Below, piece by piece: positions 10,091 to 54,373 of a DNA stretch of 64,000 bases. Origin of the DNA: Lampris incognitus (lineage: Eukaryota; Chordata; Actinopteri; Lampriformes; Lampridae); NCBI RefSeq assembly GCF_029633865.1, contig NC_079212.1, positions 150,272,099-150,336,098 of the forward strand. The letters are read 5' to 3'. Numbering within the stretch: the stretch's first letter is position 1; every line of letters begins with the position of its first letter. The position numbers and the translations under genes were made by a program. The notes beneath the pieces were generated by a model. That model did no database searches. It was not told the origin of the DNA and saw only the letters and a program-made list of their open reading frames with translations.

Positions 10091-10141
10091 GTGAGTCTCC
10101 GACATTAAACTCTATTTCTCCCCCGTTTCACACCCGCGGCT

Positions 10142-10196
10142 CCCGGGGCTCGGCGGCTCCCGTGGCCGGGTGCCCCGGGAGCCGCCGAGCCCCGGG
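10142..10196. other. GC-rich inverted repeat (21-bp arms)
   Basis: Arms at 10142-10162 and 10176-10196 are perfectly complementary over 21 bp and separated by a 13-nt loop. The outer flanks continue to pair with one bulge. It begins 51 nt past the candidate exon 1 donor, so a nascent intron 1 RNA would carry a very stable stem there. Confidence 0.85.
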
Positions 10197-10540
10197 GTGC
10201 CGCGGCCGGGCCGGGAGGCGGAGAGGTCGGCTACGAAGCCAGCAGAGCCCGGACAGAGCCAGGCTAACGACTAGCGTGCTAGCTCCAGACCTGACAGCGC
10301 ACCTCGGCCTACCGCGCCAGGCGCGGGCCGGACTATGATGACACGTAAAGAGATGGCCGGGGAGCGCCGCGTACCCCCCCCCCAAACCCCACCCCCCCCG
10401 CCGTCCGCAGCCGCCTGTCTGCCCGCCCGGCCGCCCGCCCGGCACACGGCGGGGGCGGTGCTCAGGGTCACAGGGCGCAGCGCTGCTGGACGAGCCCAAC
10501 GTGTCTTTAAACGCCAGACTATTAGCGGCTTAAAACACGA

Positions 10541-11905
10541 ATAAATTACTATTACTTAATAAATTACTATTACTTTAACACATTAAATTACTATTACTTA
10601 ATAAATTACTATTACTTTAACACATTAAATTACTATTACTTAATAAATTACTATTACTTTAACACATTAAATTACCGTTACTTAATAAATTACAATTTAA
10701 CACATTAAATTACTATTACTTAATAAATTACTATTACTTTAACACATTAAATTACTATTACTTAATAAATTACTATTACTTTAACACATTAAATTACTAT
10801 TACTTAATAAATTACTATTACTTTAACACATTAAATGACCATTACTTAGTAAATTACTATTACTTTAACACATTAAATTACTATTACTTAATAAATTACT
10901 ATTACTTTAAAACATTACATTACTATTACTTTAAAACATCAAATTACTATTACTTTCACACATTAAATTACTATTACTTTAAAACATCAAATTACTATTA
11001 CTTTCACACATTAAATTACTATTAATTTAACACATTAAATTACTATTACTTTAACACATTAAATTAATATTACTTAATAAATTACTATTACTTTAAAAAC
11101 GTTTTACTAGGAGTTTAAAAACAATAAATTACTATTACTTTAGAAACGTTTTACTATGAGTTTAAAAACAACACATTACTATTAATTTAGAAACGTTTTA
11201 CTATGAGTTTAAAAACAATACATGACTATTACTTTAAAAACGTTTTACTATGAGTTTAAAAACAATAAATTACTATTACTTTAGAAACGTTTTACTGAGT
11301 TTAAAAACAATAAATTACTATTACTTTAGAAACGTTTTACTATTGGTTTAACAACACGAATAAATTACTATTACTTTAAAACATTAAATTACTATTACTT
11401 AAAAAATACTATTAGATTAAAACATTAATAAATTAGAATAAAACAAATTACTATTAGTTTAAAAATATTAATAAATTATTGGTTTAAAAAGCATTTATTA
11501 ATTACTATTAGTTTAAAAAAAATAAATTAATATTAGTTTAAAAAATTACTAGTAGATTAAAACATTAAATTACTTTTAGTTTAAAAATGTGATAAATTAC
11601 TATTAGTTTAAAAAAATTAATAAATTACTATCGGATTAAAACAAATTACTATTAGTTTAAAAACATTAATAAATTATTAGTTTAAAAAGCATAAATAAAG
11701 TGCTATTAGTTTAAAAAGCATGAATAAATTACTATTAGTTAAAAAAAATTAATAAATTATTAGATTGAAAATTAATGAATTTCTATTGGATAAACATTTA
11801 AAAAATTACTATTGGATTAAAAACATGTATAAATTACTATTAGTTTCAAAAATTAACAAATGACTGTTAGTGTAAAAACATGAATAAATTACTCTTAGTT
11901 TAAGA
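10541..11905. repeat. AT-rich minisatellite (about 42 bp, decaying to irregular units)
   Basis: The 5' part has regular units of about 42 bp built from ttaaattactattacttaat and aaattactattactttaacaca. After about 11.1 kb these give way to related but degenerate units (agtttaaaaacaataaatta and variants). The gradient from homogeneous to diverged suggests recent amplification at the 5' end. No genes are seen. Confidence 0.92.
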
Positions 11906-12445
11906 ACTCAGACTGCTTCTAGTTTGAATTGTGTTAACGTTTGACTGTTAAGGTTTTGAAAGTTACCATGAAACTCCACGGTGTTAAAAAGTACTACAGT
12001 ATACTGCCACATGCAGGAAGGGGTTGACAGTAGAGCAGCAGTACTACTGTCGTTAGTGTCACACTACTACAACTTCTGAACAGTGTTAACATGAATGAAG
12101 TAGCTGTAAGAAGTGGCAGCATTAGACTACATGTGAAAAGTGTTCACGTTCAGATACGAGTAGATCTGAGAAGAAGAATTAAACTTCTTCTTTCATTATT
12201 TTGTGATTTAATAAGAGCTCATTCTCGAGCTTCTTGTAAGCCTCCTGGTGTGTTTTGTTGGTATTTACTGTGTAAGCAGTCATGACCATGGAGTAGAGGC
12301 AAAACTGTCCTGCCCTGTCTGACTGCTGGGAGACCCCTGTGTTTTTACCCCCCCCCCGGTGTTTTTACCCCCCCCCCGGTGTGATTGCGACTCTCATTCT
12401 GGCCCCTGTGTAAGTGACAATACCTGCGCCTGGTTTCCCAGTAAG

Positions 12446-12463
12446 ATGAGCGCAGCAGCAGCA

Positions 12464-12504
<41 letters not shown>

Positions 12505-12538: not shown

Positions 12539-12623
12539 GTAAGACGTGTGTTGCTGTAGTAACGGGGGCAGTACCTGGTTACACTGTACAAGCAGCTTAA
12601 GGCCGCTCCCTGCGTGCTGACAG

Positions 12624-13471: not shown

Positions 13472-13481
13472 CCACACACAC

Positions 13482-13533: not shown

Positions 13534-13535
<2 letters not shown>

Positions 13536-13675
13536 TATATACACAAGGACGGACCACACACACAGTCAGTGGTGCAGAGACTACATCAGAGATGCTGAAG
13601 TACACCTTAGCAGCTCACTGACATAGTACACGCCTGAGGTAGATGGACATGACAGAGCGTACCAGTATACATACG

Positions 13676-14580
13676 ATGTACAGTACACAGTATATACAAC
13701 ATGTACTGTACAGTAGATATACACCTGTACAGTACAACATGTACAGTACAGTATATACACATATACAGTACAGTATATACACATGTACAGTACAGTATAT
13801 ACACATGTACAGTACAGTATATACACATGTACAGTACAGTATATACAACATGTACAGTACAGTATATACACATGTACAGTACAGTATATACAACATGTAC
13901 TGTACAGTAGATATACACCTGTACAGTACAACATGTACAGTACAGTATATACACATGTACAGTACAGTATATACACATGTACAGTACAGTATATACAACA
14001 TGTACTGTACAGAATATACAACATGTACAGTACAGTATATACACATGTACAGTACAGTATATACACATGTACAGTACAGTATATACACATGTACAGTACA
14101 GTATATACAACATGTACAGTACAGTATATACACATGTACAGTACAGTATATACAACATGTACTGTACAGTAGATATACACCTGTACAGTACAACATGTAC
14201 AGTACAGTATATACACATGTACAGTACAGTATATACACATGTACAGTACAGTATATACAACATGTACTGTACAGAATATACAACATGTACAGTACAGTAT
14301 ATACACATGTACAGTACAGTATATACACATGTACAGTACAGTATATACAACATGTACAGTACAGTATATACACATGTACAGTACAGTATATACAACATGT
14401 ACAGTACAGTATATACACATGTACAGTACAGTATATACAACATGTACAGTACAGTATATACACATGTACAGTACAGTATATACAACATGTACAGTACAGT
14501 ATATACACATGTACAGTACAGTATATACAACATGTACAGTACAGTATATACAACATGTACAGTACAGTATATACAACATG
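13676..14580. repeat. 22/23-bp minisatellite rich in TGTAC palindromes
   Basis: Units acatgtacagtacagtata plus tac (22 bp) and the same with an extra A (23 bp), about 40 copies. Composite blocks containing 'gtactgtacagtagatatac' recur three times (near 13700, 13893 and 14158). Because the unit contains gtac/tgtaca palindromes, both strands look alike and all frames on both strands are open for 200-330 codons (YTVQYIH/CTVHVVY repeats). These are not genes. Confidence 0.95.
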
Positions 14581-14648
14581 GTTGGATTTATTGACAGTGT
14601 TAAGTGTTCCTTTGAATGACAGCCTGTAGAAATAAACTTTTTATATCT
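14581..14648. other. short unique spacer between arrays
   Basis: About 68 bp of unrecognised sequence, including an AATAAA-like 'agaaataaac', between two unrelated tandem arrays. Confidence 0.5.
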
Positions 14649-17600
14649 GGTTGTTTTGGGGTACAGTGCTCTGTAGCGCCTGTCAGAGAGGAGGAGCTGG
14701 AACAGGTTGTTTCGGGGTACAGTGCTCTGTAGCGCCTGTCAGAGAGGAGGAGCTGGAACAGGTTGTTTCGGGGTACAGTGCGCTGTAGCGCCTACCAGAG
14801 GGGAGGAGTTGGAACAGGTTGTTTCGGGGTACAGTGCTCTGTAGCGCCTGTCAGAGAGGAGGAGCTGGACCAGGTTGTTTCGGGGTACAGTGGTCTGTAG
14901 CGCCTGTCAGAAGGGAGGAGCTGGAACAGGTTGTTTCGGGGTACAGTGCTCTGTAGCGCCTGTCAGAGAGGAGGAGCTGGAACAGGTTGCTTCGGGGTAC
15001 AGTGCTCTGTAGCGCCTGTCAGAGAGGAGGAGCTGGAACAGGTTGTTTCGGGGTACAGTGCGCTGTAGCGCCTACCAGAGGGGAGGAGTTGGAACAGGTT
15101 GTTTCGGGGTACAGTGTTCTGTAGCGCCTGTCAGAAGGGAGGAGTTAGAACAGGTTGTTTCGGGGTACAGTGCTCTGTAGCGCCTGTCAGAGAGGAGGAG
15201 CTGGAACAGGTTGTTTCGGGGTACAGTGTTCTGTAGCGCCTACCAGAGGGGAGGAGCTGGAACAGGTTGTTTCGGGGTACAGTGCTCTGTAGCGCCTGTC
15301 AGAGAGGAGGAGCTGGAACAGGTTGTTTCGGGGTACAGTGCTCTGTAGCGCCTGTCAGAGAGGAGGAGCTGGACCAGGTTGTTTCGGGGTACAGTGGTCT
15401 GTAGCGCCTGTCAGAGAGGAGGAGCTGGAACAGGTTGTTTCGGGGTACAGTGCTCTGTAGCGCCTGTCAGAGAGGAGGAGCTGGAACAGGTTGTTTCGGG
15501 GTACAGTGCTCTGTAGCGCCTGTCAGAGAGGAGGAGTTGGAACAGGTTTTTTTGGGGTACAGTGCTCTGTAGCGCCTGTCAGAGAGGAGGAGCTGGAACA
15601 GGTTGTTTCGGGGTACAGTGCTCTGTAGCGCCTGTCAGAGAGGAGGAGCTGGACCAGGTTGTTTCGGGGTGCAGTGGTCTGTAGCGCCTGTCAGAGAGGA
15701 GGAGCTGGAACAGGTTGTTTCGGGGTACAGTGCTCTGTAGCGCCTGTCAGAGAGGAGGAGCTGGAACAGGTTGTTTCGGGGTACAGTGCTCTGTAGCGCC
15801 TGTCAGAGAGGAGGAGTTGGAACAGGTTTTTTTGGGGTACAGTGCTCTGTAGCGCCTGTCAGAGAGGAGGAGCTGGAACAGGTTGTTTCGGGGTACAGTG
15901 CTCTGTAGCGCCTGTCAGAGAGGAGGAGCTGGAACAGGTTGTTTCGGGGTACAGTGTTCTGTAGCGCCTGTCAGAGAGGAGGAGCTGGAACAGGTTGTTT
16001 CGGGGTACAGTGCTCTGTAGCGCCTGTCAGAAGGGAGGCGTTGGAACAGGTTTTTTTGGGGTACAGTGCTCCGTAGCACCTGTCAGAGAGGAGGAGCTGG
16101 ACCAGGTTGTTTCGGGGTACAGTGCTCTGTAGCGCCTGTCAGAAGGGAGGAGTTGGAACAGGTTTTTTTGGGGTACAGTGTTCTGTAGCGCCTGTCAGAG
16201 AGGAGGAGTTGGAACAGGTTTTTTTGGGGTACAGTGTTCTGTAGCGCCTGTCAGAGAGGAGGAGCTGGAACAGGTTGTTTCGGGGTACAGTGTTCTGTAG
16301 CGCCTGTCAGAGAGGAGGAGCTGGAACAGGTTGTTTCGGGGTACAGTGCTCTGTAGCGCCTGTCAGAGAGGAGGAGCTGGAACAGGTTGTTTCGGGGTAC
16401 AGTGCTCTGTAGCGCCTGTCAGAGAGGAGGAGCTGGAACAGGTTGTTTCGGGGTACAGTGCTCTGTAGCGCCTGTCAGAGAGGAGGAGTTGGAACAGGTT
16501 GTTTCGGGGTACAGTGTTCTGTAGCGCCTGTCAGAAGGGAGGAGTTAGAACAGGTTGTTTCGGGGTACAGTGCTCTGTAGCGCCTGTCAGAGAGGAGGAG
16601 CTGGAACAGGTTGTTTCGGGGTACAGTGTTCTGTAGCGCCTGTCAGAGAGGAGGAGCTGGAACAGGTTGTTTCGGGGTACAGTGTTCTGTAGCGCCTGTC
16701 AGAAGGGAGGAGTTGGAACAGGTTTTTTTTGGGGTACAGTGCTCTGTAGCGCCTGTCAGAGAGGAGGAGCTGGACCAGGTTGTTTCGGGGTACAGTGCTC
16801 TGTAGCGCCTGTCAGAAGGGAGGAGTTGGAACAGGTTTTTTTTGGGGTACAGTGCTCTGTAGCGCCTGTCAGAGAGGAGGAGCTGGACCAGGTTGTTTCG
16901 GGGTACAGTGCTCTGTAGCGCCTGTCAGAGAGGAGGAGTTGGAACAGGTTTTTTTGGGGTACAGTGCTCTGTAGCGCCTGTCAGAGAGGAGGAGCTGGAC
17001 CAGGTTGTTTCGGGGTACAGTGGTCTGTAGCGCCTGTCAGAGAGGAGGAGCTGGAACAGGTTGTTTCGGGGTACAGTGCTCTGTAGCGCCTGTCAGAGAG
17101 GAGGAGCTGGAACAGGTTGTTTCGGGGTACAGTGCTCTGTAGCGCCTGTCAGAGAGGAGGAGTTGGAACAGGTTTTTTTGGGGTACAGTGCTCTGTAGCG
17201 CCTGTCAGAGAGGAGGAGCTGGAACAGGTTGTTTCGGGGTACAGTGCTCTGTAGCGCCTGTCAGAGAGGAGGAGCTGGAACAGGTTGTTTCGGGGTACAG
17301 TGTTCTGTAGCGCCTGTCAGAGAGGAGGAGCTGGAACAGGTTGTTTCGGGGTACAGTGCTCTGTAGCGCCTGTCAGAAGGGAGGCGTTGGAACAGGTTTT
17401 TTTGGGGTACAGTGCTCCGTAGCGCCTGTCAGAGAGGAGGAGCTGGACCAGGTTGTTTCGGGGTACAGTGCTCTGTAGCGCCTGTCAGAAGGGAGGAGTT
17501 GGAACAGGTTTTTTTGGGGTACAGTGTTCTGTAGCGCCTGTCAGAGAGGAGGAGTTAGAACAGGTTGTTTCGGGGTACAGTGCTCCGTAGCGCCTGTCAG

Positions 17601-20144
17601 AGAGGAGGAGCTGGACCAGGTTGTTTCGGGGTACAGTGCTCTGTAGCGCCTGTCAGAAGGGAGGAGTTGGAACAGGTTTTTTTGGGGTACAGTGTTCTGT
17701 AGCGCCTGTCAGAAGGGAGGAGTTGGAACAGGTTTTTTTTGGGGTACAGTGCTCTGTAGCGCCTGTCAGAGAGGAGGAGCTGGACCAGGTTGTTTCGGGG
17801 TACAGTGCTCTGTAGCGCCTGTCAGAGAGGAGGAGTTGGAACAGGTTTTTTTGGGGTACAGTGCTCTGTAGCGCCTGTCAGAGAGGAGGAGCTGGACCAG
17901 GTTGTTTCGGGGTACAGTGGTCTGTAGCGCCTGTCAGAGAGGAGGAGCTGGAACAGGTTGTTTCGGGGTACAGTGCTCTGTAGCGCCTGTCAGAGAGGAG
18001 GAGCTGGAACAGGTTGTTTCGGGGTACAGTGCTCTGTAGCGCCTGTCAGAGAGGAGGAGTTGGAACAGGTTTTTTTGGGGTACAGTGCTCTGTAGCGCCT
18101 GTCAGAGAGGAGGAGCTGGAACAGGTTGTTTCGGGGTACAGTGCTCTGTAGCGCCTGTCAGAGAGGAGGAGCTGGAACAGGTTGTTTCGGGGTACAGTGT
18201 TCTGTAGCGCCTGTCAGAGAGGAGGAGCTGGAACAGGTTGTTTCGGGGTACAGTGCTCTGTAGCGCCTGTCAGAAGGGAGGCGTTGGAACAGGTTTTTTT
18301 GGGGTACAGTGCTCCGTAGCGCCTGTCAGAGAGGAGGAGCTGGACCAGGTTGTTTCGGGGTACAGTGCTCTGTAGCGCCTGTCAGAAGGGAGGAGTTGGA
18401 ACAGGTTTTTTTGGGGTACAGTGTTCTGTAGCGCCTGTCAGAGAGGAGGAGTTGGAACAGGTTTTTTTGGGGTACAGTGTTCTGTAGCGCCTGTCAGAGA
18501 GGAGGAGTTAGAACAGGTTGTTTCGGGGTACAGTGCTCTGTAGCGCCTGTCAGAGAGGAGGAGCTGGACCAGGTTGTTTCGGGGTACAGTGGTCTGTAGC
18601 GCCTGTCAGAGAGGAGGAGCTGGAACAGGTTGTTTCGGGGTACAGTGCTCTGTAGCGCCTGTCAGAGAGGAGGAGCTGGAACAGGTTGTTTCGGGGTACA
18701 GTGCTCTGTAGCGCCTGTCAGAGAGGAGGAGCTGGAACAGGTTGTTTCGGGGTACAGTGCTCTGTAGCGCCTGTCAGAGAGGAGGAGCTGGAACAGGTTG
18801 TTTCGGGGTACAGTGGTCTGTAGCGCCTGTCAGAGAGGAGGAGCTGGAACAGGTTGTTTCGAGGTACAGTGCTCTGTAGCGCCTGTCAGAGAGGAGGAGC
18901 TGGAACAGGTTGTTTCGGGGTACAGTGCTCTGTAGCGCCTGTCAGAGAGGAGGAGCTGGAACAGGTTGTTTCGGGGTACAGTGGTCTGTAGCGCCTGTCA
19001 GAGAGGAGGAGCTGGAACAGGTTGTTTCGGGGTACAGTGCTCTGTAGCGCCTGTCAGAGAGGAGGAGCTGGAACAGGTTGTTTCGGGGTACAGTGCTCTG
19101 TAGCGCCTGTCAGAGAGGAGGAGCTGGAACAGGTTGTTTCGGGGTACAGTGTTCTGTAGCGCCTGTCAGAGAGGAGGAGCTGGAACAGGTTGTTTCGGGG
19201 TACAGTGCTCTGTAGCGCCTGTCAGAAGGGAGGAGTTGGAACAGGTTTTTTTGGGGTACAGTGTTCTGTAGCGCCTGTCAGAGAGGAGGAGCTGGACCAG
19301 GTTGTTTCGGGGTACAGTGGTCTGTAGCGCCTGTCAGAGAGGAGGAGCTGGAACAGGTTGTTTCGGGGTACAGTGCTCTGTAGCGCCTGTCAGAAGGGAG
19401 GAGTTGGAACAGGTTTTTTTGGGGTACAGTGCTCCGTAGCGCCTGTCAGAGAGGAGGAGCTGGACCAGGTTGTTTCGGGGTACAGTGCTCTGTAGCGCCT
19501 GTCAGAAGGGAGGAGTTGGAACAGGTTTTTTTGGGGTACAGTGCTCTGTAGCGCCTACCAGAGAGGAGGAGCTGGAACAGGTTGTTTCGGGGTACAGTGC
19601 TCTGTAGCGCCTGTCAGAGAGGAGGAGTTGGAACAGGTTTTTTTGGGGTACAGTGCTCTGTAGCGCCTGTCAGAGAGGAGGAGCTGGACCAGGTTGTTTC
19701 GGGGTACAGTGGTCTGTAGCGCCTGTCAGAGAGGAGGAGCTGGAACAGGTTGTTTCGGGGTACAGTGGTCTGTAGCGCCTGTCAGAGAGGAGGAGCTGGA
19801 ACAGGTTGTTTCGGGGTACAGTGCTCTTTAGCGCCTGTCAGAGAGGAGGAGCTGGAACAGGTTGTTTCGGGGTACAGTGCTCTGTAGCGCCTGTCAGAGA
19901 GGAGGAGTTGGAACAGGTTTTTTTGGGGTACAGTGCTCTGTAGCGCCTGTCAGAGAGGAGGAGCTGGAACAGGTTGTTTCGGGGTACAGTGCTCTGTAGC
20001 GCCTGTCAGAGAGGAGGAGCTGGACCAGGTTGTTTCGGGGTACAGTGCTCTGTAGCGCCTGTCAGAGAGGAGGAGCTGGAACAGGTTGTTTCGGGGTACA
20101 GTGCTCTGTAGCGCCTACCAGAGAGGAGGAGCTGGACCAGGTTG
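14649..20144. repeat. 56-bp minisatellite, about 98 copies
   Basis: Unit gtttcggggtacagtgctct, then gtagcgcctgtcagagagga, then ggagctggaacaggtt (56 bp). Recurrent variants are tttttttgggg for gtttcgggg, gaagggagg for gagaggagg, and gttctg or ggtctg for gctctg. Blocks of variants are themselves repeated, for example about 897 bp apart (16 units plus 1 bp) between 16931 and 17828. The many stops keep frames short. Array length is about 5.5 kb. Confidence 0.97.
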
Positions 20145-20525
20145 TGACCAGGGTGTGATGGGTCTGCAGTGATAAGTCGTGTCATCCTCGTGTCCTCACA
20201 CACCAGTATACACCTGGTCTTGTCCTACGCATGACAAGTGCGGTTACCTGGGTTTTGATTGGGCAGCACGGTATATTCTCAGTCTGCAGCATCAACAGTG
20301 TGTCAGTGTGAACACCAACACACACTTTTCTCTCGCCTGTTCTGCCATGAACACACTGTGTTGTTGCACACCTCTACAACTCAGTGTTCACATTCTCACT
20401 CTGATGACATGTAAAGAAAACAAAGCAGGTTGTTGTTACATTTGCCCTGCAAATGTGAAAGTGTTGTTATTTTATCCATCTGAAGCATGAGGGTCATCCC
20501 AGCATGCTTCAAAAGAAACCCCGAC
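20145..20525. other. unrecognised single-copy spacer
   Basis: About 380 bp with no recognised gene, RNA or known repeat. A 103-codon frame at 20179-20490 has no supporting signals and is probably chance. Confidence 0.5.
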
Positions 20526-20850
20526 TATGAAGACCTGTACACCTGGTCACATCATGAAGACCTGTAGACCTGATCACATTATGAAGACTTGTACACCTGA
20601 TCACATCATGAAGACCTGTAGACCTGATCACATTATGAAGACTTGTACACCTGATCACATTATGAAGACTTGTACACCTGATCACATTATGAAGACTTGT
20701 ACACCTGATCACATTATGAAGACTTGTACACCTGATCACATTATGAAGACTTGTACACCTGATCACATTATGAAGACTTGTACACCTGATCACATAATGA
20801 AGACTTGTACACCTGATCACATTATGAAGACTTGTACACCTGATCACATT
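20526..20850. repeat. 27-bp minisatellite, 12 copies
   Basis: Units attatgaagacttgtacacc followed by tgatcac (27 bp), with tagacc/acacc and catc/catt variants in the first copies. In frame it reads MKTCTPDHI repeats; not a gene. Confidence 0.95.
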
Positions 20851-20938
20851 AATCTTGGCATCAGCTGTAAACGTGATGTAAAACTCTACACGTCTTAGTT
20901 TGGACTCCGTTGAGCCTTTTCCACCTGAATCCAAGCTC

Positions 20939-40370: not shown

Positions 40371-42558
40371 TCAGATGGCATGTGTGTAGGTCAGATGGCA
40401 TGGGTGTAGGTCAGATGGCATGTGTGTAGGTCAGATGGCATGTGTGTAGGTCAGATGGCATGAGTGTAGGTCAGATGGCATGTGTGTAGGTCAGATGACG
40501 TGTGTGTAGGTCAGATGGCATGTGTGTAGGTCAGATGACGTGTGTGTAGGTCAGATGACATGTGTGCAGGACAGACGGCATGTGTGTAGGTCAGATGGCA
40601 TGTGTGTAGGTCAGATGACATGTGTGCAGGACAGACGGCATGTGTGTAGGTCAGATGGCATGTGTGTAGGTCAGATGGCATGTGTGTAGGTCAGATGGCA
40701 TGTGTGTAGGTCGGATGGCATGTGTGTAGGTCAGATGACGTGTGTGTAGGTCAGACGGCATGTGTGTAGGTCAGATGACGTGTGTGTAGGTCAGATGACA
40801 TGTGTGCAGGACAGACGGCATGTGTGTAGGTCAGATGGCATGTGTGTAGGTCAGATGACATGTGTGCAGGACAGACGGCATGTGTGTAGGTCAGATGGCA
40901 TGTGTGTAGGTCAGATGACGTGTGTGTAGGTCAGATGGCATGTGTGTAGGTCAGATGGCATGTGTGTAGGTCAGATGACATGTGTGTTGGTCGGATGGCA
41001 TGTGTGTAGGTCAGATGGCATGTGTGTAGGTCAGATGGCATGTGTGTAGGTCAGATGACATGTGTGTAGGTCGGATGGCATGTGTGTAGGTCAGATGGCA
41101 TGTGTGTAGGTCAGATGACGTGTGTGTTGGTCGGATGGCATGTGTGTAGGTCAGATGGCATGTGTGTAGGTCAGATGGCATGTGTGTAGGTCAGATGACA
41201 TGTGTGTAGGTCGGATGGCATGTGTGTAGGTCAGATGGCATGTGTGTAGGTCAGATGACGTGTGTGTAGGTCAGATGGCATGTGTGTAGGTCAGATGACG
41301 TGTGTGTAGGTCAGACGGCATGTGTGTAGGTCAGATGACGTGTGTGTAGGTCAGATGACATGTGTGCAGGACAGACGGCATGTGTGTAGGTCAGATGGCA
41401 TGTGTGTAGGTCAGATGACATGTGTGCAGGACAGACGGCATGTGTGTAGGTCAGATGGCATGTGTGTAGGTCAGATGGCATGTGTGTAGGTCAGATGGCA
41501 TGTGTGTAGGTCAGATGACGTGTGTGTAGGTCAGATGGCATGTGTGTAGGTCAGATGGCATGTGTGTAGGTCAGATGGCATGTGTGTAGGTCAGATGGCA
41601 TGTGTGTAGGTCGGATGGCATGTGTGTTGGTCGGATGGCATGTGTGTAGGTCAGATGGCGTGTGTGTAGGTCAGATGGCATGGGTGTAGGTCAGATGACA
41701 TGTGTGTAGGTCAGATGGCATGGGTGTAGGTCAGATGGCATGGGTGTAGGTCAGATGACGTGTGCAGGACAGACGCCATGTGTGTAGGTCGGACGGCATG
41801 TGTGTAGGTCAGATGACATGTGTGCAGGACAGACGGCATGTGTGTAGGTCAGATGGCATGTGTGTAGGTCAGATGGCATGTGTGTAGGTCAGATGACATG
41901 TGTGCAGGACAGACGGCATGTGTGTAGGTCAGATGACGTGTGTGTAGGTCGGATGACATGTGTGTAGGTCAGATGACATGTGTGCAGGACAGACGGCATG
42001 TGTGTAGGTCAGATGACGTGTGTGTAGGTCGGATGACATGTGTGTAGGTCAGATGACATGTGTGCAGGACAGACGGCATGTGTGTAGGTCAGATGGCATG
42101 TGTGTAGGTCAGATGACATGTGTGCAGGACAGACGGCATGTGTGTAGGTCGGACGGCATGTGTGTAGGTCAGATGGCATGTGTGTAGGTCAGATGACATG
42201 GGTGTAGGTCAGATGGCATGTGTGTAGGTCAGATGGCATGTGTGTAGGTCAGATGACATGTGTGTAGGTCAGATGACATGTGTGTAGGTCAGATGGCATG
42301 TGTGTAGGTCAGATGACATGTGTGTAGGTCAGATGGCATGTGTGTAGGTCAGATGACATGTGTGTAGGTCAGATGGCATGTGTGTAGGTCAGATGACATG
42401 TGTGTAGGTCAGATGACATGTGTGTAGGTCAGATGGCATGTGTGTAGGTCAGATGGCATGTGTGTAGGTCAGATGACATGTGTGTAGGTCAGATGGCATG
42501 TGTGTAGGTCAGATGGCATGTGTGTAGGTCAGATGGCATGTGTGTAGGTCGGATGGCA
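40371..42558. repeat. 20-bp minisatellite, about 109 copies
   Basis: Unit tcagatggcatgtgtgtagg, with variants atgaca, atgacg, gacggc, tcgga and 'tgtgcaggaca'. The order of variants is itself repeated in blocks (for example gacatgtgtgcaggacagac recurs many times). The period is extremely regular; one copy near 41761 is shorter ('tgtgcagg'). Confidence 0.96.
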
Positions 42559-42781: not shown

Positions 42782-43882
42782 CGGTCTACATGGTCTACAC
42801 GGTCTACATGGTCTACATGTTTTACATGGCGTACATAGTTTACATGGTCTACGTGGTTTACATGATGTACACGGTTTACATGGTCTACACGGTCTACATG
42901 GTGTACATAGATTACATGGTGTACATACGTAGTTTACATGGTCTACGTGGTTTACATGGTGTACACAGTTTACATGGTCTACAAGTTTTACATGGTGTAC
43001 ATAGTTTACATGGTGTACATAGTTTACATGGTCTACGTGGTTTACATGGTGTACACAGTTTACATGATGTGCACAGTTTACATGGTCTACGTTGTTTACA
43101 TGGTGTACACGGTTTACATGATGTACACAGTTTACATGGTCTACATGTTTTAAATGGTGTACATAGTTTACATAGTTTACATGGTCTACGTGGTTTACAT
43201 GGTGTACACGGTTTACATGATGTACACAGTTTACATGGTCTACGTTGTTTACATGGTGTACACGGTTTACATGATGTACACAGTTTACATGGTCTACATG
43301 TTTTACATGGTGTACATAGTTTACATAGTTTACATGGTCTACGTGGTTTACATGGTGTACACGGTTTACATGATGTACACAGTTTACATGGTCTACATGT
43401 TTTACATGGTGTACATAGTTTACATGGTTTACATAGTTTACATGGTCTACGTGGTTTACATGGTGTATACAGTTTACATGGTGTACACGGTTTACATGGT
43501 CTACGTGGTTTACATGGTGTACACGGTTTACATGGTGTACATAGTTTACATGGTCTACGTGGTTTACATGATGTACACGGTTTACATGGTCTACATGTTT
43601 TACATGGTGTACATAGTTTACATGGTCTACGTGGTTTACATGGTGTACACAGTTTACATGATGTACACGGTTTACATGGTCTACGTGGTTTACATGGTGT
43701 ACACAGTTTACATGATGTACATGGTTTACATGGTCTGCATGGTCTACATGTTTTACATGGTCTCCACGGGTTACATGGCTTACATGGTTTACATGGTTTA
43801 TATGTTTTACATGATATACATGGTGCACATGGTCCACATGGTTTACATGGTGCACATGGTCCACATGGTTTACATGGTGCAT
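42782..43882. repeat. 9/12-bp minisatellite (tttacatggtctacgtgg type)
   Basis: Built from short units tttacatgg, tctacatgg and tgtacacag, all multiples of three, so frames on both strands are open for 280-520 codons ([26 protein letters not shown]). The repetitive products and lack of any domain argue against coding. The 3' end degenerates into tgcacatggtccacatgg units. Confidence 0.95.
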
Positions 43883-43964: not shown

Positions 43965-44350
43965 ATAATAAAATAACAACAACAACAATAATAATATAAT
44001 AACAGTAACAACAACAACAACAACAACAACAATAATAACAATAATACAACAACAATAATAATAATAATATAATAACAACAACAATAATATAACAATAACA
44101 ACAGCAATAATATAATAATAACAACAATAATAATAAAATAATAAAATAATAATAATATAACAACAACAACAACAATAATATAATAATAATATAATAATAA
44201 CAAAAACAACAATAATATAATAATAATCATAATAATAATATAATAACAACAACAACAACAACAATAATAACAACATGTATATAGTGCTTTTCTAGACCCC
44301 CAAAGCGCTTCACATTGAGGGGGGTAACTCAGGTCAACCATCATGTGGGG
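43965..44350 (+). mobile_element. (AAT/AAC)n tract plus 'agcgcttcaca' fish dispersed repeat
   Basis: About 300 bp of AAT/AAC triplet repeat (43965-44271) leads into tatagtgcttttctagaccc and ccaaagcgcttcacattgag. It ends near 'ggtcaaccatcatgtgggg'. It is organised like the fragment at 8160-8291. The triplet tract makes a pseudo-frame on the reverse strand (poly Tyr/Leu/Val). Confidence 0.65.
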
Positions 44351-44825
44351 CAGCCTGGCCTGAGTTTCTAAAATGCAGACTCAACGCCATTTCCATCCAA
44401 TCAAAGGGTTTATTTACAGGGTCCAAGTACATATGAACTGAACAAACTACTCCCAGTAATTGAGCCTGAACTCACAAAGAAATTAACAAAACTCAACTCA
44501 CAACAATCGGAACATCTCTTGCACACATCTACACCCTGACGTCCTACAACCCCCTCACAACTCCAAAGCTACTGCTTACATACCCCCCTTGAGTTGCTCA
44601 GCAGCACCTGAGTTCCGGAGGCACCACTGTGGCAAGGGACGCCACCACCTCGTACCAGCTGACATGATGGTGAGACAAATGGTTGTGTTTTCACCCACTT
44701 TGTCACACACCACCAATGTACCATACATTAAATTACTGCTACGCATGGCCGCTTGTTTGTGGTGACTGCAGACGTAGCTGAAGCGTGGGGGGTTTAATGA
44801 CCTCAGCTCTGCAGTACACATCTGA
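44351..44825 (-). other. unassigned segment with a retroelement-like end
   Basis: Complex sequence in which the reverse strand reads gtaaataaaccctttgattg (44396-44415), containing AATAAA. Together with a nearby poly-C segment near 44583 this resembles part of an LTR or a retroposed 3' end in reverse orientation. No terminal repeats or primer-binding site were identified, so this is a low-confidence suggestion. Confidence 0.25.
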
Positions 44826-47800
44826 TTTTCTCTCTTGTGGAGCCATGATGTGTGATGTGGATGTTCTCCCTTGTGGAGACATGATGTGTGATGTGGATGT
44901 TCTCTCTCGTGGACCCAGGATGTGTGATGTGGATGTTCTCTCTCGTGGAGTCATGATATGTGATGTGGATGTTCTCTCTTGTGGAGCCAGGATATGTGAT
45001 GTGGATGTTCTCTCTCGTGGAGTCATGATATGTGATGTGGATGTTCTCTCTTGTGGAGTCATGATATGTGATGTGGATGTTCTCTCTCGTGGACCCAGGA
45101 TATGTGATGTGGATGTTCTCTCTCGTGGAGTCATGATATGTGATGTGGATGTTCTCTCTTGTGGAGCCAGGATGTGTGATGTGGTTCTCTCTCGTGGACC
45201 CATGATGTGTGATGTGGATGTTCTCTCTTGTGGAGCCAGGATGTGTGATGTGGTTCTCTCTCGTGGACCCATGATGTGTGATGTGGATGTTCTCTCTTGT
45301 GGAGCCAGGATGTGTGATGTGGATGTTCTCTCTTGTGGAGCCAGGATGTGTGATGTGGATGTTCTCTCTTGTGGAGTCATGACGTGTGATGTGGATGTTC
45401 TCTCTTGTGGAGCCAGGATGTGTGATGTGGATGTTCTCTCTCGTGGAGTCATGATATGTGATGTGGATGTTCTCTCTTGTGGAGCCAGGATGTGTGATGT
45501 GGTTCTCTCTCGTGGACCCATGATGTGTGATGTGGATGTTCTCTCTTGTGGAGCCAGGATGTGTGATGTGGATGTTCTCTCTCGTGGAGCCATGATGTGT
45601 GATGTGGATGTTCTCTCTCGTGGACCCAGGATGTGTGATGTGGATGTTCTCTCTTGTGGAGCCATGATGTGTGATGTGGATGTTCTCTCTTGTGGAGTCA
45701 TGACGTGTGATGTGGATGTTCTCTCTTGTGGAGCCAGGATGTGTGATGTGGATGTTCTCTCTCGTGGAGCCATGATGTGTGATGTGGATGTTCTCTCTCG
45801 TAGACCCAGGATATGTGATGTGGATGTTCTCTCTCGTGGAGTCATGATGTGTGATGTGGATGTTCTCTTGTGGAGCCATGATGTGTGATGTGGATGTTCT
45901 CTCTTGTGGAGCCAGGATGTGTGATGTGGATTTTCTCTCTTGTGGAGCCATGATGTGTGATGTGGATGTTCTCTCTTGTGGAGCCTTGATGTGTGATGTG
46001 GATGTTCTCTCTTGTGGAGTCATGATGTGTGATGTGGATGTTCTCTCTTGGGGAGACATGATGTGTGATGCGGATGTTCTCTTGTGGAGCCATGATGTGT
46101 GATGTGGATGTTCTCTTGTGGAGCCAGGAGTTGTGATGTGGATGTTCTCTCTTGTGGAGTCATGATGTTTGATGTGGATGTTCTCTCTTGTGGAGACATG
46201 ATGTGTGATGTGGATGTCCTCTTGGAGACATGATGTGTGATGTGGATGTTCTCTCTTGTGGAGCCATGATGTGTGATGTGGATGTTCTCTCTTGTGGAGT
46301 CATGATGTGTGATGTGGATGTTCTCTCTTGGGGAGACATGATGTGTGATGTGGATGTTCTCTTGTGGAGCCATGATGTGTGATGTGGATGTTCTCTCTTG
46401 TGGAGCCAGGATTTGTGATGTGGATGTTCTCTCTTGTTGAGTCATGATGTTTGATGTGGATGTTCTCTCTTGTGGAGCCATGATGTGTGATGTGGATGTT
46501 CTCTTGTGGAGTCATGATGTTTGATGTGGATGTTCTCTTGGAGCCATGATGTGTGATGTGGATGTTCTCTCTTGTGGAGCCATGATGTGTGATGCGGATG
46601 TTCTCTCTTGTGGAGCCATGATGTGTGATGTGGATGTTCTCTCTTGTGGAGCAATGATGTGTGATGTGGATGTCCTCTTGGAGCCAGGATGTGTGATGTG
46701 GATGTCCTCTTGGAGCCAGGATGTGTGATGTGGATGTCCTCTTGGAGTCATGATGTGTGATGTGGATGTTCTCTCTTTTGGAGCCATGATGTGTGATGTG
46801 GATGTTCTCTCTTGTTGAGCCAGGATGTGTGATGTGGATGTTCTCTCTTGTGGAGCAATGATGTGTGATGTGGATGTCCTCTTGGAGCCAGGATGTGTGA
46901 TGTGGATGTCCTCTTGGAGCCAGGATGTGTGATGTGGATGTCCTCTTGGAGTCATGATGTGTGATGTGGATGTTCTCTCTTTTGGAGCCATGATGTGTGA
47001 TGTGGATGTTCTCTCTTGTTGAGCCAGGATGTGTGATGTGGATGTTCTCTCTTGTGGAGACATGATGTGTGATGTGGATGTCCTCTTGGAGCCAGGATGT
47101 GTGATGTGGATGTTCTCTCTTGTGGAGACATGATGTGTGATGTGGATGTTCTCTCTTGTGGAGCAATGATGTGTGATGTGGATGTCCTCTTGGAGCCAGG
47201 ATGTGTGATGTGGATGTTCTCTCTCGTGGAGTCATGACGTGTGATGTGGATGTTCTCTCTTGTGGAGCCATGATGTGTGATGTGGATGTTCTCTCTTGTG
47301 GAGCCATGATGTGTGATGTGGATGTTCTCTCTCGTGGAGCCATGATGTGTGATGTGGATGTTCTCTCTTGTGGAGCCATGATGTGTGATGTGGATGTTCT
47401 CTCTTGTGGAGCCATGATGTGTGATGCGGATGTTCTCTCTCGTGGAGCCATGATGTGTGATGTGGATGTTCTCTCTTGTGGAGCCATGATGTGTGATGTG
47501 GATGTTCTCTCTTGTGGAGCCAGGATGTGTGATGCGGATGTTCTCTCTCGTGGAGCCATGATGTGTGATGTGGATGTTCTCTCTTGTGGAGCCAGGATGT
47601 GTGATGTGGTTCTCTCTCGTGGAGTCATGATGTGTGATGTGGATGTTCTCTCTTGTGGAGCCAGGATGTGTGATGTGGATGTTCTCTCTCGTGGAGCCAG
47701 GATGTGTGATGTGGTTCTCTCTCGTGGACCCATGATGTGTGATGTGGATGTTCTCTCTTGTGGAGCCAGGATGTGTGATGTGGATGTTCTCTCTTGTGGA

Positions 47801-50800
47801 GTCATGACGTGTGATGTGGATGTTCTCTCTTGTGGAGCCAGGATGTGTGATGCGGATGTTCTCTCTCGTGGAGCCATGATGTGTGATGTGGATGTTCTCT
47901 CTTGTGGAGCCATGATGTCTGATGTGGATGTCCTCTCTTGTGGAGCCAGGATGTGTGATGCGGATGTTCTCTCTCGTGGAGCCATGATGTGTGATGTGGA
48001 TGTTCTCTCTTGTGGAGCCAGGATGTGTGATGTGGATGTTCTCTCTTGTGGACCCAGGATATGTGATGTGGATGTTCTCTCTTGTGGAGCCAGGATGTGT
48101 GATGTGGATATTCTCTCTTGTGGAGTCTTGATGTGTGATGTGGATGTTCTCTCTTGTGGAGCCAGGATGTGTGATGTGGATGTTCTCTCTTGTGGAGTCA
48201 TGATGTGTGATGTGGATGTTCTCACTTGTGGACCCAGGATGTGTGATGTGGATGTTCTCTCTTGTGGAGCCATGATGTGTGATGTGGATGTTCTCTCTTG
48301 TGGAGCAATGATGTGTGATGTGGATGTCCTCTTGGAGCCAGGATGTGTGATGTGGATGTCCTCTTGGAGCCAAGATGTGTGATGTGGATGTCCTCTTGGA
48401 ATCATGATGTGTGATGTGGATGTTCTCTCTTGTGGAGCCATGATGTGTGATGTGGATGTTCTCTCTTGTTGAGCCAGGATGTGTGATGTGGATGTTCTCT
48501 CTTGTGGACCCAGGATATGTGATGTGGATGTTCTCTCTTTTGGAGCCAGGATGTGTGATGCGGATGTTCTCTCTTGTGGAGCCAGGATGTGTGATGTGGA
48601 TGTTCTCTCTTGTTGAGCCAGGATGTGTGATGTGGATGTTCTCTCTTGTGGAGACAGGATGTGTGATGTGGATGTTCTCTCTTGTTGAGTCATGATGTGT
48701 GATTTGGATGTTCTCTCTTGTGGAGCCATGATGTGTGATGTGGATGTTCTCTCTTGTGGAGCCAGGATGTGTGATGTGGATGTTCTCTTGTGGAGCCATG
48801 ATGTGTGATGTGGATGTTCTCTCTTGTGGAGCCAGGATGTGTGATGTGGATGTTCTCTCTTGTGGAGCCATGATGTGTGATGTGGATGTTCTCTCTTGTG
48901 GAGTCATGATGTTTGATGTGGATGTTCTCTCTTGTGGAGACATGATGTGTGATGTGGATGTCCTCTTGGAGACATGATGTGTGATGTGGATGTTCTCTCT
49001 TGTGGAGCCATGATGTGTGATGTGGATGTTCTCTCTTGTGGAGTCATGATGTGTGATGTGGATGTTCTCTCTTGTGGAGACATGATGTGTGATGTGGATG
49101 TTCTCTTGTGGAGTCATGATGTTTGATGTGGATGTTCTCTTGGAGACATAATGTGTGATGTGGATGTCCTCTTGGAGACATGATGTGTGATGTGGATGTT
49201 CTCTCTTGTGGAGCCATGATGTGTCATGTGGATGTTCTCTCTTGTGGAGCCATGATGTGTGATGCGGATGTTCTCTCTTGTGGAGCCATGATGTGTGATG
49301 TGGATGTTCTCTCTTGTGGAGCAATGATGTGTGATGTGGATGTCCTCTTGGAGCCAGGATGTGTGATGTGGATGTCCTCTTGGAGCCAGGATGTGTGATG
49401 TGGATGTCCTCTTGGAGTCATGATGTGTGATGTGGATGTTCTCTCTTGTGGAGCCATGATGTGTGATGTGGATGCTCTCTCTTGTTGAGCCATGATGTGT
49501 GATGTGGATGTTCTCTCTTGTGGAGACACGATGTGTGATGCGGATGTTCTCTCTTTTGGAGCCAGGATGTGTGATGCGGATGTTCTCTCTTGTGGAGTCA
49601 TGACGTGTGATGTGGATGTTCTCTCTTGTGGAGCCAGGATGTGTGATGTGGATGTTCTCTCTTGTGGAGCCATGATGTTTGATGTGGATGTTCTCTCTTG
49701 TGGAGTCATGACGTGTGATGTGGATGTTCTCTCTTTTGGAGCCAGGATGTGTGATGCGGATGTTCTCTCTTGTGGAGTCATGACGTGTGATGTGGATGTT
49801 CTCTCTTTTGGAGCCAGGATGTGTGATGCGGATGTTCTCTCTTGTGGAGCCAGGATGTGTGATGCGGATGTTCTCTCTTGTGGAGTCATGACGTGTGATG
49901 TGGATGTTCTCTCTTGTGGAGCCAGGATGTGTGATGTGGATGTTCTCTCTTGTTGAGCCATGATGTGTGATGTGGATGTTTTCTCTTGTGGAGACATGAT
50001 GTGTGATGTGGATGTTTTCTCTTGTGGAGACATGATGTGTGATGTGGATGTTCTCTCTTGTGGAGCCATGATGTGTGATGCGGATGTTCTCTTGGAGACA
50101 TGATGTGTGATGTGGATGTCCTCTTGGAGACATGATGTGTGATGTGGATGTTCTCTCTTGTGGAGCCATGATGTGTGATGTGGATGTTCTCTCTTGTGGA
50201 CCCAGGATATGTGATGTGGATGTTCTCTCTTGTGGACCCAGGATATGTGATGTGGATGTTCTCTCTTGTGGAGCCATGATGTGTGATGTGGATGTTCTCT
50301 CTTGTGGAGCAATGATGTGTGATGTGGATGTCCTCTTGGAGCCAGGATGTGTGATGTGGATGTCCTTTTGGAGCCAGGATGTGTGATGTGGATGTCCTCT
50401 TGGAATCATGATATGTGATGTGGATGTTCTCTCTTGTGGAGCCATGATGTGTGATGTGGATGTTCTCTCTTGTTGAGCCAGGATGTGTGATGTGGATGTT
50501 CTCTCTTGTGGAGACATGATGTGTGATGTGGATGTTCTCTCTTGTGGAGCCAGGATGTGTGATGCGGATGTTCTCTTGGAGACATGATGTGTGATGTGGA
50601 TGTCTTCTTGGAGACATGATGTGTGATGTGGATGTTCTCTCTTGTGGAGCCATGATGTGTGATGTGGATGTTCTCTCTTGTGGAGCCACGATGTGTGATG
50701 CGGATGTTCTCTCTTGTGGAGCCATGATGTGTGATGTGGATGTTCTCTCTTGTGGAGCAATGATGTGTGATGTGGATGTCCTCTTGGAGCCAGGATGTGT

Positions 50801-53342
50801 GATGTGGATGTCCTCTTGGAGCCAGGATGTGTGATGTGGATGTCCTCTTGGAATCATGATGTGTGATGTGGATGTTCTCTCTTGTGGAGCCATGATGTGT
50901 GATGTGGATGTTCTCTCTTGTTGAGCCAGGATGTGTGATGTGGATGTTCTCTCTTGTGGACCCAGGATATGTGATGTGGATGTTCTCTCTTTTGGAGCCA
51001 GGATGTGTGATGCGGATGTTCTCTCTTGTGGAGCCAGGATGTGTGATGTGGATGTTCTCTCTTGTTGAGCCAGGATGTGTGATGTGGATGTTCTCTCTTG
51101 TGGAGACAGGATGTGTGATGCGGATGTTCTCTCTTGTGGAGCCATGATGTGTGATGTGGATGTTCTCTCTTGTGGAGCCATGATGTGTGATGTGGATGTT
51201 CTCTCTTGTGGAGCCAGGATGTGTGATGTGGATGTTCTCTCTTGTGGAGCCGTGATGTGTGATGTGGATGTTCTCTCTTGTGGGGCCATGATGTGTGATG
51301 TGGATGTTCTCTCTTGTGGAGCCGTGATGTATGATATGGATGTCCTCTTGAAGCCATGATGTGTGATGTGGATGTTCTCTCTTGTGGAGCCATGATGTGT
51401 GATGTGGATGTTCTCTCTTGTGGAGCCATGATGTGTGATGTGGATGTTCTCTTGGAGTCATGATGTGTGATGTGGATGTTCTCTCTTGTGGAGCCGTGAT
51501 GTGTGATGTGGATGTTCTCTCTTGTGGAGCCATGATGTGTGATGTGGATGTCCTCTTGGAGTCATGATGTGTGATGTGGATGTTCTCTCTTGTGGAGCCA
51601 TGATGTGTGATGTGGATGTTCTCTCTTGTTGAGCCAGGATGTGTGATGTGGATGTTCTCTCTTGTGGAGCCATGATGTGTGATGTGGATGTCCTCTCTTG
51701 TGGAGCCAGGATGTGTGATGCGGATGTTCTCTCTCGTGGAGCCATGATGTGTGATGTGGATGTTCTCTCTTGTGGAGCCAGGATGTGTGATGCGGATGTT
51801 CTCTTGGAGACATGATGTGTGATGTGGATGTCCTCTTGGAGACATGATGTGTGATGTGGATGTTCTCTCTTGTGGAGCCATGATGTGTGATGTGGATGTT
51901 CTCTCTTGTGGAGCCATGATGTGTGATGCGGATGTTCTCTCTTGTGGAGCCATGATGTGTGATGTGGATGTTTTTCTCTTGTGGGGCAATGATGTGTGAT
52001 GTGGATGTCCTCTTGGAGCCAGGATGTGTGATGTGGATGTCCCCTTGGAATCATGATGTGTGATGTGGATGTTCTCTCTTGTGGAGCCATGATGTGTGAT
52101 GTGGATGTTCTCTCTTGTGGAGCCATGATGTGTGATGTGGATGTTCTCTCTTTTGGAGCCAGGATGTGTGATGCGGATGTTCTCTCTTGTGGAGCCAGGG
52201 TGTGTGATGCGGATGTTCTCTCTTGTGGAGTCATGACGTGTGATGTGGATGTTCTCTCTTCTGGAGCCAGGATGTGTGATGTGGATGTTCTCTCTTGTTG
52301 AGCCAGGATGTGTGATGTGGATATTCTCTCTTGTGGAGACAGGATGTGTGATGCGGATGTTCTCTCTTGTGGACCCATGATGTGTGATGTGGATGTTCTC
52401 TCTTGTGGAGCCATGATTTGTGATGTGGATGTTCTCTCTTGTGGAGCCATGATGTGTGATGTGGATGTTCTCTTGGAGTCATGATGTGTGATGTGGATGT
52501 TCTCTCTTGTGGAGCCGTGATGTGTGATGTGGATGTTCTCTCTTGTGGAGCCATGATGTGTGATGTGGATGTCCTCTTGGAGTCATGATGTGTGATGTGG
52601 ATGTTCTCTCTTGTGGAGCCATGATGTATGATGTGGATGTCCTCTTGGACCCAGGATGTGTGATGTGGATGTCCTCTTGGAGCCAGGATGTGTGATGCGG
52701 ATGTCCTCTTGGAGTCATGATGTGTGATGTGGATGTTCTCTCTTGTGGAGCCAGGATGTGTGATGTGGATGTTCTCTCTTGTGGAGCCATGATATGTGAT
52801 GTGGATGTCCTGTTGGAGCCAGGATGTGTGATGTGGATGTCCTCTTGGAGCCAGGATGTGTGATGTGGATGTCCTCTTGGAGCCAGGATGTGTGATGTGG
52901 ATGTCCTCTTGGAGTCATGATGTGTGATGTGGATGTCCTCTTTTGTGGAGCCATGATGTGTGATGTGGATTTTCTCTCTTGTGGAGCCAGGATGTGTGAT
53001 GTGGATGAGGATGTGTGATGTGGATGTTTTTTCTTGTGGAGCCATGATGTGTGATGTGGATGTTCTCTCTTGTGGAGCCAGGATGTGTGATGTGGATGTT
53101 CTCTCTTGTGGAGCCATGATGTGTGATGTGGATGTTTTTTCTTGTGGAGCCATGATGTGTGATGTGGATGTTCTCTCTTGAGGAGCCAGGATGTGTGATG
53201 TGGATGTTCTCTCTTGTGGAGCCATGATGTGTGATGTGGATGTTCTCTCTTGAGGAGCCAGGATGTGTGATGTGGATGTTCTCTCTTGTGGAGCCATGAT
53301 GTGTGATGTGGATGTTTTTTCTTGTGGAGCCATGATGTGTGC
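44826..53342. repeat. 36-bp minisatellite, 8.5 kb, over 230 copies
   Basis: Unit gatgtgtgatgtggatgttc followed by tctcttgtggagccat (36 bp, 12 codons), with variants tctcgtgg, cccagg, gtcatg, gacatg, and a shortened 'gtcctcttggagc' unit of about 29-30 bp that interrupts the frame. The dominant period is a multiple of three, so forward (MCDVDVLSCGA) and reverse (APQERTSTSHI) frames stay open for up to 809 codons. Longer blocks are duplicated: the triple short-unit block recurs at about 46.68, 46.88, 48.33, 49.34, 50.33 and 50.78 kb. Not protein coding. Confidence 0.96.
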
Positions 53343-53483
53343 TTGGTTCACTCTGGTGTCCATGCTCCGGTCCGAAGCTGCCTCAGAGGAGAGAACATCT
53401 GCCTCCATAACATCATGTAGACATAGTCCTTCTCAACAGCCACTGGTCTTGTGGACTTTGCTCCATGAGATGTTAAACTTAAA

Positions 53484-54141
53484 CTACCGTTCAAAAGTTT
53501 GGGATCACCCAAACAATTTTGTGTTTTCCATGAAAAGTCACACTTATTCACCACCATATGTTGTGAAATGAATAGAAAATAGAGTCAAGACATTGACAAG
53601 GTTAGAAATAATGATTTGTATTTGAAATAAGATTTTTTTTACATCAAACTTTGCTTTCGTCAAAGAATCCTCCATTTGCAGCAATTACAGCATTGCAGAC
53701 CTTTGGCATTCTAGCTGTTAATTTGTTGAGGTAATCTGGAGAAATTGCACCCCACGCTTCCAGAAGCAGCTCCCACAAGTTGGATTGGTTGGATGGGCAC
53801 TTCTTTGAGCAGATTGAGTTTCTGGAGCATCACATTTGTGGGGTCAATTAAACGCTCAAAATGGCCAGAAAAAGAGAACTTTCATCTGAAACTCGACAGT
53901 CTATTCTTGTTCTTAGAAATGAAGGCTATTCCATGCGAGAAATTGCTAAGAAATTGAAGATTTCCTACACCGGTGTGTACTACTCCCTTCAGAGGACAGC
54001 ACAAACGGGCTCTAACCAGAGTAGAAAAAGAAGTGGGAGGCCGCGTTGCACAACTGAGCAAGAAGATAAGTACATTAGAGTCTCTAGTTTGAGAAACAGA
54101 CGCCTCACAGGTCCCCAACTGGCATCTTCATTAAATAGTAC
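53484..54141 (+). mobile_element. Tc1-like DNA transposon, 5' remnant
   Basis: Begins with a terminal-type sequence ctaccgttcaaaagtttggg, followed by about 375 bp of leader. The N-terminal part of a Tc1-family transposase frame then starts at 53861. The element is truncated at about 54141. No right terminal repeat is present. It sits about 0.25 kb upstream of the first cnbp coding exon, within the candidate first intron. Confidence 0.8.
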
Positions 54142-54148
54142 CTGTTAG
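53861..54148 (+). pseudogene. Tc1-like transposase, N-terminal fragment
   Basis: A 95-codon frame begins MARKRELSSETRQSILVLRN. It contains the paired-type helix-turn-helix segment typical of Tc1 transposases (residues about 5-45, including YSMREIAKKLKISYTGVYY) and the linker motif KRSGRPR (residues about 56-62) before a second HTH. It stops at a TAG created where foreign sequence joins. The catalytic DDE domain, roughly the C-terminal two thirds of the usual ~340 residues, is absent, so it cannot be active. Confidence 0.85.
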
Positions 54149-54189
54149 AGCCTGTTTGTGCTGTCCTCTGAAGGGAGTAGTACAAACCG
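54142..54189 (-). repeat. inverted copy of a Tc1 transposase segment
   Basis: This 48-bp stretch is the reverse complement, with a few mismatches, of 53971-54018 (the part coding GVYYSLQRTAQTGSNQ). The two arms are about 125 bp apart. It may mark the junction of a rearrangement that truncated the element, or a second inverted Tc1 fragment. Confidence 0.8.
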
Positions 54190-54373
54190 TCGTACACGCG
54201 GGCAAAAACTGTTTACGGAGAAAAGTTGGCAGATTTCAGCTTTAAACTACAATAACCAACCCCTCCGGTCAGCTCTTCTGGCCCCGTGTTTCACCTGGCT
54301 GTCTGTGATAACTAGTGTGTCTGTTCTACATGCCGGAGTGACAAGAGCTGCTGCCTAACTTGTGTGTGTCCAG

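Follow-up and report, generated by a model that had tools for sequence, protein, structure and literature searches.

In the window analysed here, a stretch of 64,000 nucleotides (G000:C2:150272099-150336098, from an assembly of 1.48 Gb in 537 contigs), the first intron of the gene cnbp consists for the greater part of tandem arrays. They fill 38,923 out of its 44,283 bases (87.9%), and the window lies 2.13 Mb from the end of its contig (C2, 152.5 Mb). We propose that births of minisatellites near the chromosome end, some of them seeded by mobile elements and enlarged by unequal exchange, explain this intron, and we give this explanation a probability of roughly 0.75.

Arrays were called by Tandem Repeats Finder (TRF), and the union of all calls with a period of at least 7 and a score of at least 150 was counted. 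First-order Markov controls of intron 1 (n=20) contained 0% array under the same counting. The units measure 42, 22 (also 45), 56, 27, 31 (with 30-bp variants), 67, 20, 18 and 36 bp, and an AAT/AAC-rich array is added to these. An all-against-all comparison of 18 units of the window yielded not a single matching pair at E<=0.01, and by this comparison the arrays of intron 1 are built from mutually unrelated units. A preliminary description of the stretch had claimed at least nine unrelated arrays covering about 39 of 44 kb, and both figures hold. Its list of units was right for all arrays except one, read there as “9/12” bp and better described as an 18-bp unit with a 9-bp half period. In bins of 1 kb the GC content of the long arrays of intron 1 ranges from 0.38 to 0.56 and falls to 0.18 in the AT-rich array.

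The birth of one of these arrays can be read in some detail. A query of 224 bases from the 56-bp array was searched in the assembly, and 40 of 1,449 candidates were scored. Tandem matches were found in the window and on the contigs C97, C14 and C25, together with at least 36 single matches of about 60-80 bases. Exact copies of a 20-base core of the unit number 840, of which the array of the window accounts for 62 (exact cores only). Two of the single copies, L071 and L072, have just one 56-bp segment, behind which GGTTGT occurs a second time. On the left of the array about 50 of the 68 adjoining bases resemble the left side of this dispersed sequence (87-88% identity), and on the right the sequence goes on without a mismatch for 28 bases (see the table). 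As both flanks continue as the element, the array arose within a single copy of it, apparently through a duplication between 6-bp direct repeats (GGTTGT). Judging from its hundreds of copies the dispersed sequence would be a mobile element. In the related arrays on C97, C14 and C25 the matches are spaced by multiples of 55, 50 and 45 bp. Such differing spacings suggest different end points, and with them that these arrays were born independently from one segment.

For the other arrays the search for a seed yielded less. Among 265 kb of other loci, 15 units were tested, and besides the 56-bp unit only the 20-bp unit matched (75% over 80 bases, L045). The 31-bp array has only weak matches elsewhere (70-76%) at four places, two on C18 and one each on C2 and C11; as this search skips very common words, the window's own array was not returned.

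A further hint towards the mechanism arises from the inner structure of the arrays. In the five arrays that were cut into units, the identity between units of the same length does not drop with distance. Exact, non-overlapping blocks recur far apart, namely one of 580 bp at a distance of 3,170 bp in the 31-bp array, one of 758 bp at 897 bp in the 56-bp array and one of 295 bp at 2,452 bp in the 36-bp array, and the 31-bp array contains 106 distinct variants among 536 pieces. Flat identity together with distant exact blocks is an argument that unequal exchange or conversion has moved blocks, and that slippage of single units alone would not suffice.

The neighbourhood of the window is rich in arrays as well. 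Twelve stretches of 10 kb between 150.19 and 150.42 Mb contain 83, 28, 51, 59, 69, 100, 0, 0, 14, 74, 65 and 56% array, with a mean of 50% of the non-N bases. Dense neighbours outside cnbp are L009 (83%), L014 (100% of its 2,500 non-N bases) and L018 (74%). The two stretches of zero, L015 and L016 (C2:150336099-150356098), are the 20 kb to the right of the window and hold no arrays of period at least 7; they form a nest of transposons with open reading frames (ORFs) that, named by eye, are LTR-retroelement-like (long terminal repeat), hAT-like and Tc1-like.

For a wider comparison we read points at round coordinates, placed 2 Mb after the start of a contig or some 2 Mb before its end; four further points fell on contigs of less than 2 Mb and dropped out. 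One of the 26 near-end points was dropped (1,965 of its 2,000 bases were N), leaving 25; the 16 interior points were taken partly from C2 (6) and partly from other chromosomes (10). A share of at least 20% array was found at 16 out of the 25 near-end points (mean 45%) compared to 3 out of the 16 interior points, the other 13 having none (Mann-Whitney p=0.0009; Fisher p=0.005, and also 0.005 without the interior points on C2). This enrichment near the ends is a correlation in a sample, not a whole-genome profile. Two of the three dense interior points, L026 (C2:50 Mb) and L025 (C2:75 Mb), are single-family satellites, each filling its 10 kb wholly (602 bp in L025, 35/176 bp in L026); possibly they are centromeric satellites or mark fusion points on the very long C2. 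Points outside the near-end test contained 32% (67% of non-N bases) at 1 Mb from the start of C2 and 14% at 3.5 Mb from its end. Further inwards, at 4 Mb from an end, one of five points of 400 bases was dense (C15), and a single point at 6 Mb had no array. The dense zone thus appears to be a few Mb deep, its depth being known only roughly. The preliminary description had held that its reading would fail if most introns of the species were as dense in repeats; the interior points, taken by coordinate with introns and intergenic DNA together, are mostly array-free and do not show such a density. Taken together, position on the chromosome is a better predictor of arrays than the identity of the gene as cnbp.

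We therefore picture the following sequence of events. A segment between short direct repeats, lying in a dispersed sequence that resembles a mobile element, would be duplicated, as can be read for one array. The array would then grow and be reshuffled by unequal exchange or gene conversion, with blocks of variant units being duplicated, which the array structure supports. In our sample dense arrays correlate with position, being much commoner some 2 Mb away from a contig end than in contig interiors; within the window they sit upstream of cnbp and in its introns 1 and 4. Their formation may be driven by a high frequency of meiotic breaks and crossovers towards the ends of chromosomes. The gene would tolerate the arrays, since the intron is spliced out and the exons and the promoter island stay array-free. 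The arrays would presumably be neutral to cnbp.

Several observations weigh against this explanation. A seed was traced for only one of the ten arrays of intron 1. Out of the four arrays sharing that seed, those on C2 and C14 are near contig ends, and the one on C25, at 31.5 Mb, is probably not, judged by the sizes of C24 and C26. Among the first 100 of the 840 core copies (all of C1, and C2 up to 31.5 Mb) none is in an array, the closest pair being 178 bp apart, and nine of these 100 are single copies less than 3 Mb from an end; the matches of the 224-base query add two more. Copies of the element near an end have thus often stayed single, so that expansion is rare even there. Nine of the 25 near-end points have less than 20% array, five of these none. 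The samples measure 0.4-10 kb and were read without gene annotation, so that introns and intergenic DNA are pooled, and the neighbouring loci were picked around the window. Intron 1 (88%) is denser than its neighbourhood (50%) and ranks among the densest parts of its zone, mainly owing to one array of 16.4 kb. Finally, a megablast self-comparison returned no long duplicates (at most 43 bp in the 31-bp array, none in three others), a result we judge uninformative; the recurring blocks given above come from an exact-match search.

As an alternative, arrays might gather near ends because selection or chromatin is permissive there, without recombination raising their birth rate. The mobile-element nest in the same zone fits such a general permissiveness. 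However, shuffled variant units and long duplicated blocks at a distance require exchange, and in frogs the density of satellites at chromosome ends correlates with recombination (PMC10794172). We consider permissiveness as the sole cause rather unlikely.

The preliminary description had suggested instead that the intron itself may tolerate, or promote, tandem expansion in several vertebrate lineages. By this account cnbp intron 1, near the promoter and highly transcribed, would be a fish parallel to myotonic dystrophy type 2 (DM2). Intron 1 is indeed the densest part of the window, with 88% compared to 59% of the 9.2 kb that separate cnbp exon 1 from the last exon of the upstream gene; introns 3 and 4 have shares of 7% and 53%, and intron 2 (312 bp) has no array. 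The human disease repeat, too, is located in this intron of the gene (PMC3378579). Against this stand the neighbours L009, L014 and L018, which are nearly as dense or denser outside cnbp, and the arrays near other chromosome ends. The human repeat is derived from an Alu element and confined to simian primates (PMC3378579). The TRF list of intron 1 contains no CCTG array; arrays with a 4-bp period were called in intron 3 only, and these consist of TATC. A promoting role of the intron hence seems quite improbable, and the suggestion was not borne out.

The cnbp gene has its five exons on the + strand, the first being non-coding, and the joined coding exons give a complete CNBP of 161 amino acids with seven CCHC knuckles counted by eye and an RG-rich stretch. 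The Pfam family zf-CCHC matches this product at E 8e-43, and six stretches pass individually. Over the full query the protein is 96% identical to one protein each from Alosa alosa and Coilia grayii, and below these matches follow named CNBP proteins from other fish and from mammals. By these comparisons the identity as cnbp is secure, and the protein matches point to a bony fish as the source. A compact second cnbp paralog was found by protein search of the assembly, with coding matches within G000:C2:16417721-16418903 in the chromosome interior. At G000:C2:96045429-96045487 there is a 90% match to cnbp exon 1 alone, with no adjoining match to exon 2 among those listed.

Splice sites were scored by a simple position matrix of textbook frequencies for 4,735 GT and 6,694 AG sites in the window. 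The donor after 10090 ranks second out of all GT sites, topped only by the cnbp donor after 54508. The acceptor before 54374 ranks 122 out of the 6,694 AG sites and is the sole one scoring above 2 within 54250-54420. When the CNBP protein was searched against the assembly, an intronless copy of cnbp with two in-frame TGA codons came up on C1 (G000:C1:20588251-20588796). Its 5' part (L075) carries the last 32 bases of exon 1 (10059-10090), altered by a single-base insertion and at two further bases, and continues directly with 54374 onward; a joined query of exons 1 and 2 aligns across the junction in one piece at 92%. Since a retrocopy preserves the sequence of a spliced RNA, the splice from 10090 to 54374 took place in an ancestral germ line. 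The retrocopy serves as a natural complementary DNA that supports this splice in the 5' untranslated region; it says nothing on the length of intron 1 at the time of retrocopying. Splice sites, retrocopy junction and complete product agree with the intron of about 44 kb (10091-54373) put forward in the preliminary description.

It is very unlikely that the true first exon is to be sought closer to 54.3 kb, and equally so that an additional exon at 12442-12538 splits the intron. The latter segment does look like an exon, with a donor ranked 5 out of 4,735 and an acceptor ranked 131 out of 6,694, close to the values of real cnbp exons, and with a short ORF for polyalanine that runs up to the donor; it sits in a CpG-enriched stretch. 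As the retrocopy fuses 10090 straight to 54374 and lacks the segment, we rejected it as an exon of cnbp; a minor isoform may use it.

That the arrays or their lengths are artefacts of assembly is just as improbable: runs of N do occur in loci close by and in further distal ones (L014, L028, L030, L044, L045), though an N need not mark an assembly gap, but the window is free of any N, the units differ among themselves (106 variants in the 536 pieces of the 31-bp array), and a single assembly error would hardly produce ten unrelated arrays.

Features of the window (positions counted from its first nucleotide; bp, base pairs)
Feature	Position	Strand	Basis or remark
Span with upstream arrays, units of 37, 15, 37, 24 and 22 bp	2916..9656		TRF
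cnbp promoter island	9657..10533	+	no arrays of period >=7; flanked by arrays on both sides
cnbp exon 1 end	10090	+	donor rank and retrocopy junction
cnbp intron 1	10091..54373	+	44,283 bp, 87.9% tandem arrays
AT-rich array, units of 42/47/24 bp	10534..11907		TRF
22/45-bp array, 262-bp higher-order period	13663..14580		TRF
Left remnant of putative seeding element	14594..14646	+	87-88% identity over 49-53 bases to L071, L072, L073
56-bp array, about 98 copies	14649..20145	+	TRF; element comparison
Right remnant of putative seeding element	20146..20173	+	28 bases identical to L071, L072, L073 and a stretch of L036
27-bp array, 12 copies	20526..20851		TRF
30/31-bp array, about 535 copies, 16.4 kb	20953..37313		TRF; unit cutting
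67-bp array, 35 copies	37782..40119		TRF
20-bp array, about 110 copies	40371..42558		TRF
18-bp array, 9-bp half period (lag 9 scores too)	42783..43879		TRF
AAT/AAC-rich array	43965..44270		TRF
36-bp array, about 240 copies, 8.5 kb	44824..53341		TRF
cnbp exon 2, first coding exon	54374..54508	+	ATG at 54406
cnbp exon 3	54821..54886	+	splice-site scoring, translation
cnbp exon 4	59049..59247	+	splice-site scoring, translation
29-bp array, cnbp intron 4	59446..60023		TRF
cnbp exon 5, coding part up to stop	61342..61459	+	splice-site scoring, translation

Some further features of the window are reported for completeness. The CpG island at about 9500-10500 has an observed/expected CpG ratio of 0.84-0.94 and a GC content of 0.66-0.72, and an AGG tract is located at 9959-10013 inside the promoter island. 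One 1-kb bin upstream, in a 37-bp array, reaches a GC content of 0.67. On the + strand G exceeds C in the five largest arrays of intron 1 (14649-53341) and in the upstream 37- and 24-bp arrays (2916-5064, 6025-9161). The excess of G is thus on the strand that has the sense of cnbp transcription, a possible signal of R-loops or of strand bias. Long ORFs within the arrays were considered as a hidden gene and rejected, as they merely follow array units free of stops. A search against Rfam at gathering thresholds gave no match. Intron 3 contains a Tc1-like transposase ORF (57179-57970) and a fragment resembling a long interspersed nuclear element (LINE) at about 54940-56405, both named by eye; Pfam gave no match on the LINE-like stretch. 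Visual inspection suggests that the + strand holds, at about 647-826, the final coding exon of an upstream gene, with an array (1-491) in the presumed preceding intron.

The kind of process proposed here is already known, and minisatellites born from transposons have been reviewed (PMC9659126). What is added is a fish case inside the intron of a gene with a birth that can be read, a clean one in that seed, birth junction and grown array are all legible. It also illustrates that a conserved gene can bear an intron of 44 kb made nearly entirely of arrays. On cnbp introns of fish or minisatellites at fish chromosome ends nothing matching was found in the leading part of the literature results (titles and openings of abstracts), which does not prove its absence.

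Our observations would extend to a fish what was reported for frogs, namely that chromosome ends breed minisatellites, some of them seeded by mobile elements. As in the extended subtelomeres of Xenopus tropicalis and other frogs, arrays are abundant at the ends, where in frogs the expansions differ by lineage, and some arrays go back to a small internal part of a mobile element with intact copies throughout the genome (PMC10794172), as in the fish was traced for the 56-bp array. In frogs a 52-bp piece of a SINE/tRNA-V element (short interspersed nuclear element) expanded only in subtelomeric copies (PMC10794172), compared to two out of four arrays with the same seed near ends in the fish. Unlike the frog zone of 20-30 Mb (PMC10794172), that of the fish seems to measure a few Mb, and its arrays fill the intron of a conserved gene. 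Satellites derived from SINEs are also described for reptiles (PMC10702118). One could speculate that the inner segment of one old element family is a putative seed of minisatellites shared by fish and frogs (with the 52-bp tail of V-SINEs), that position at the end decides on expansion, and that introns of near-end genes vary by tens of kb between individuals and so affect expression; we regard this combined scenario as a long shot.

Human variable number tandem repeats (VNTRs) are enriched within 5 Mb of chromosome ends, introns included (PMC7608644), and the fish arrays, in an intron 2.13 Mb from the end, agree with this. The human enrichment is strongest for GC-rich units (>60%; PMC7608644), unlike the long intron arrays of the fish with 38-56% GC, and array densities are not comparable across the studies. 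With the DM2 repeat the fish arrays share the gene and the intron, and one of them shares a seed in a mobile element (PMC3378579). They differ in sequence and unit size. The CCTG tract of DM2 goes back to an AluSx insertion in early primates, is common to simians and absent from other mammals, and its long alleles are pathogenic (PMC3378579), whereas the fish arrays are the structure of the reference. As the human repeat rests on a primate Alu, the two have no shared ancestry (PMC3378579), and a common cause is unlikely beyond the general capacity of mobile elements to seed repeats. An intron location shared with human DM2 should therefore not be taken to mean a shared cause.

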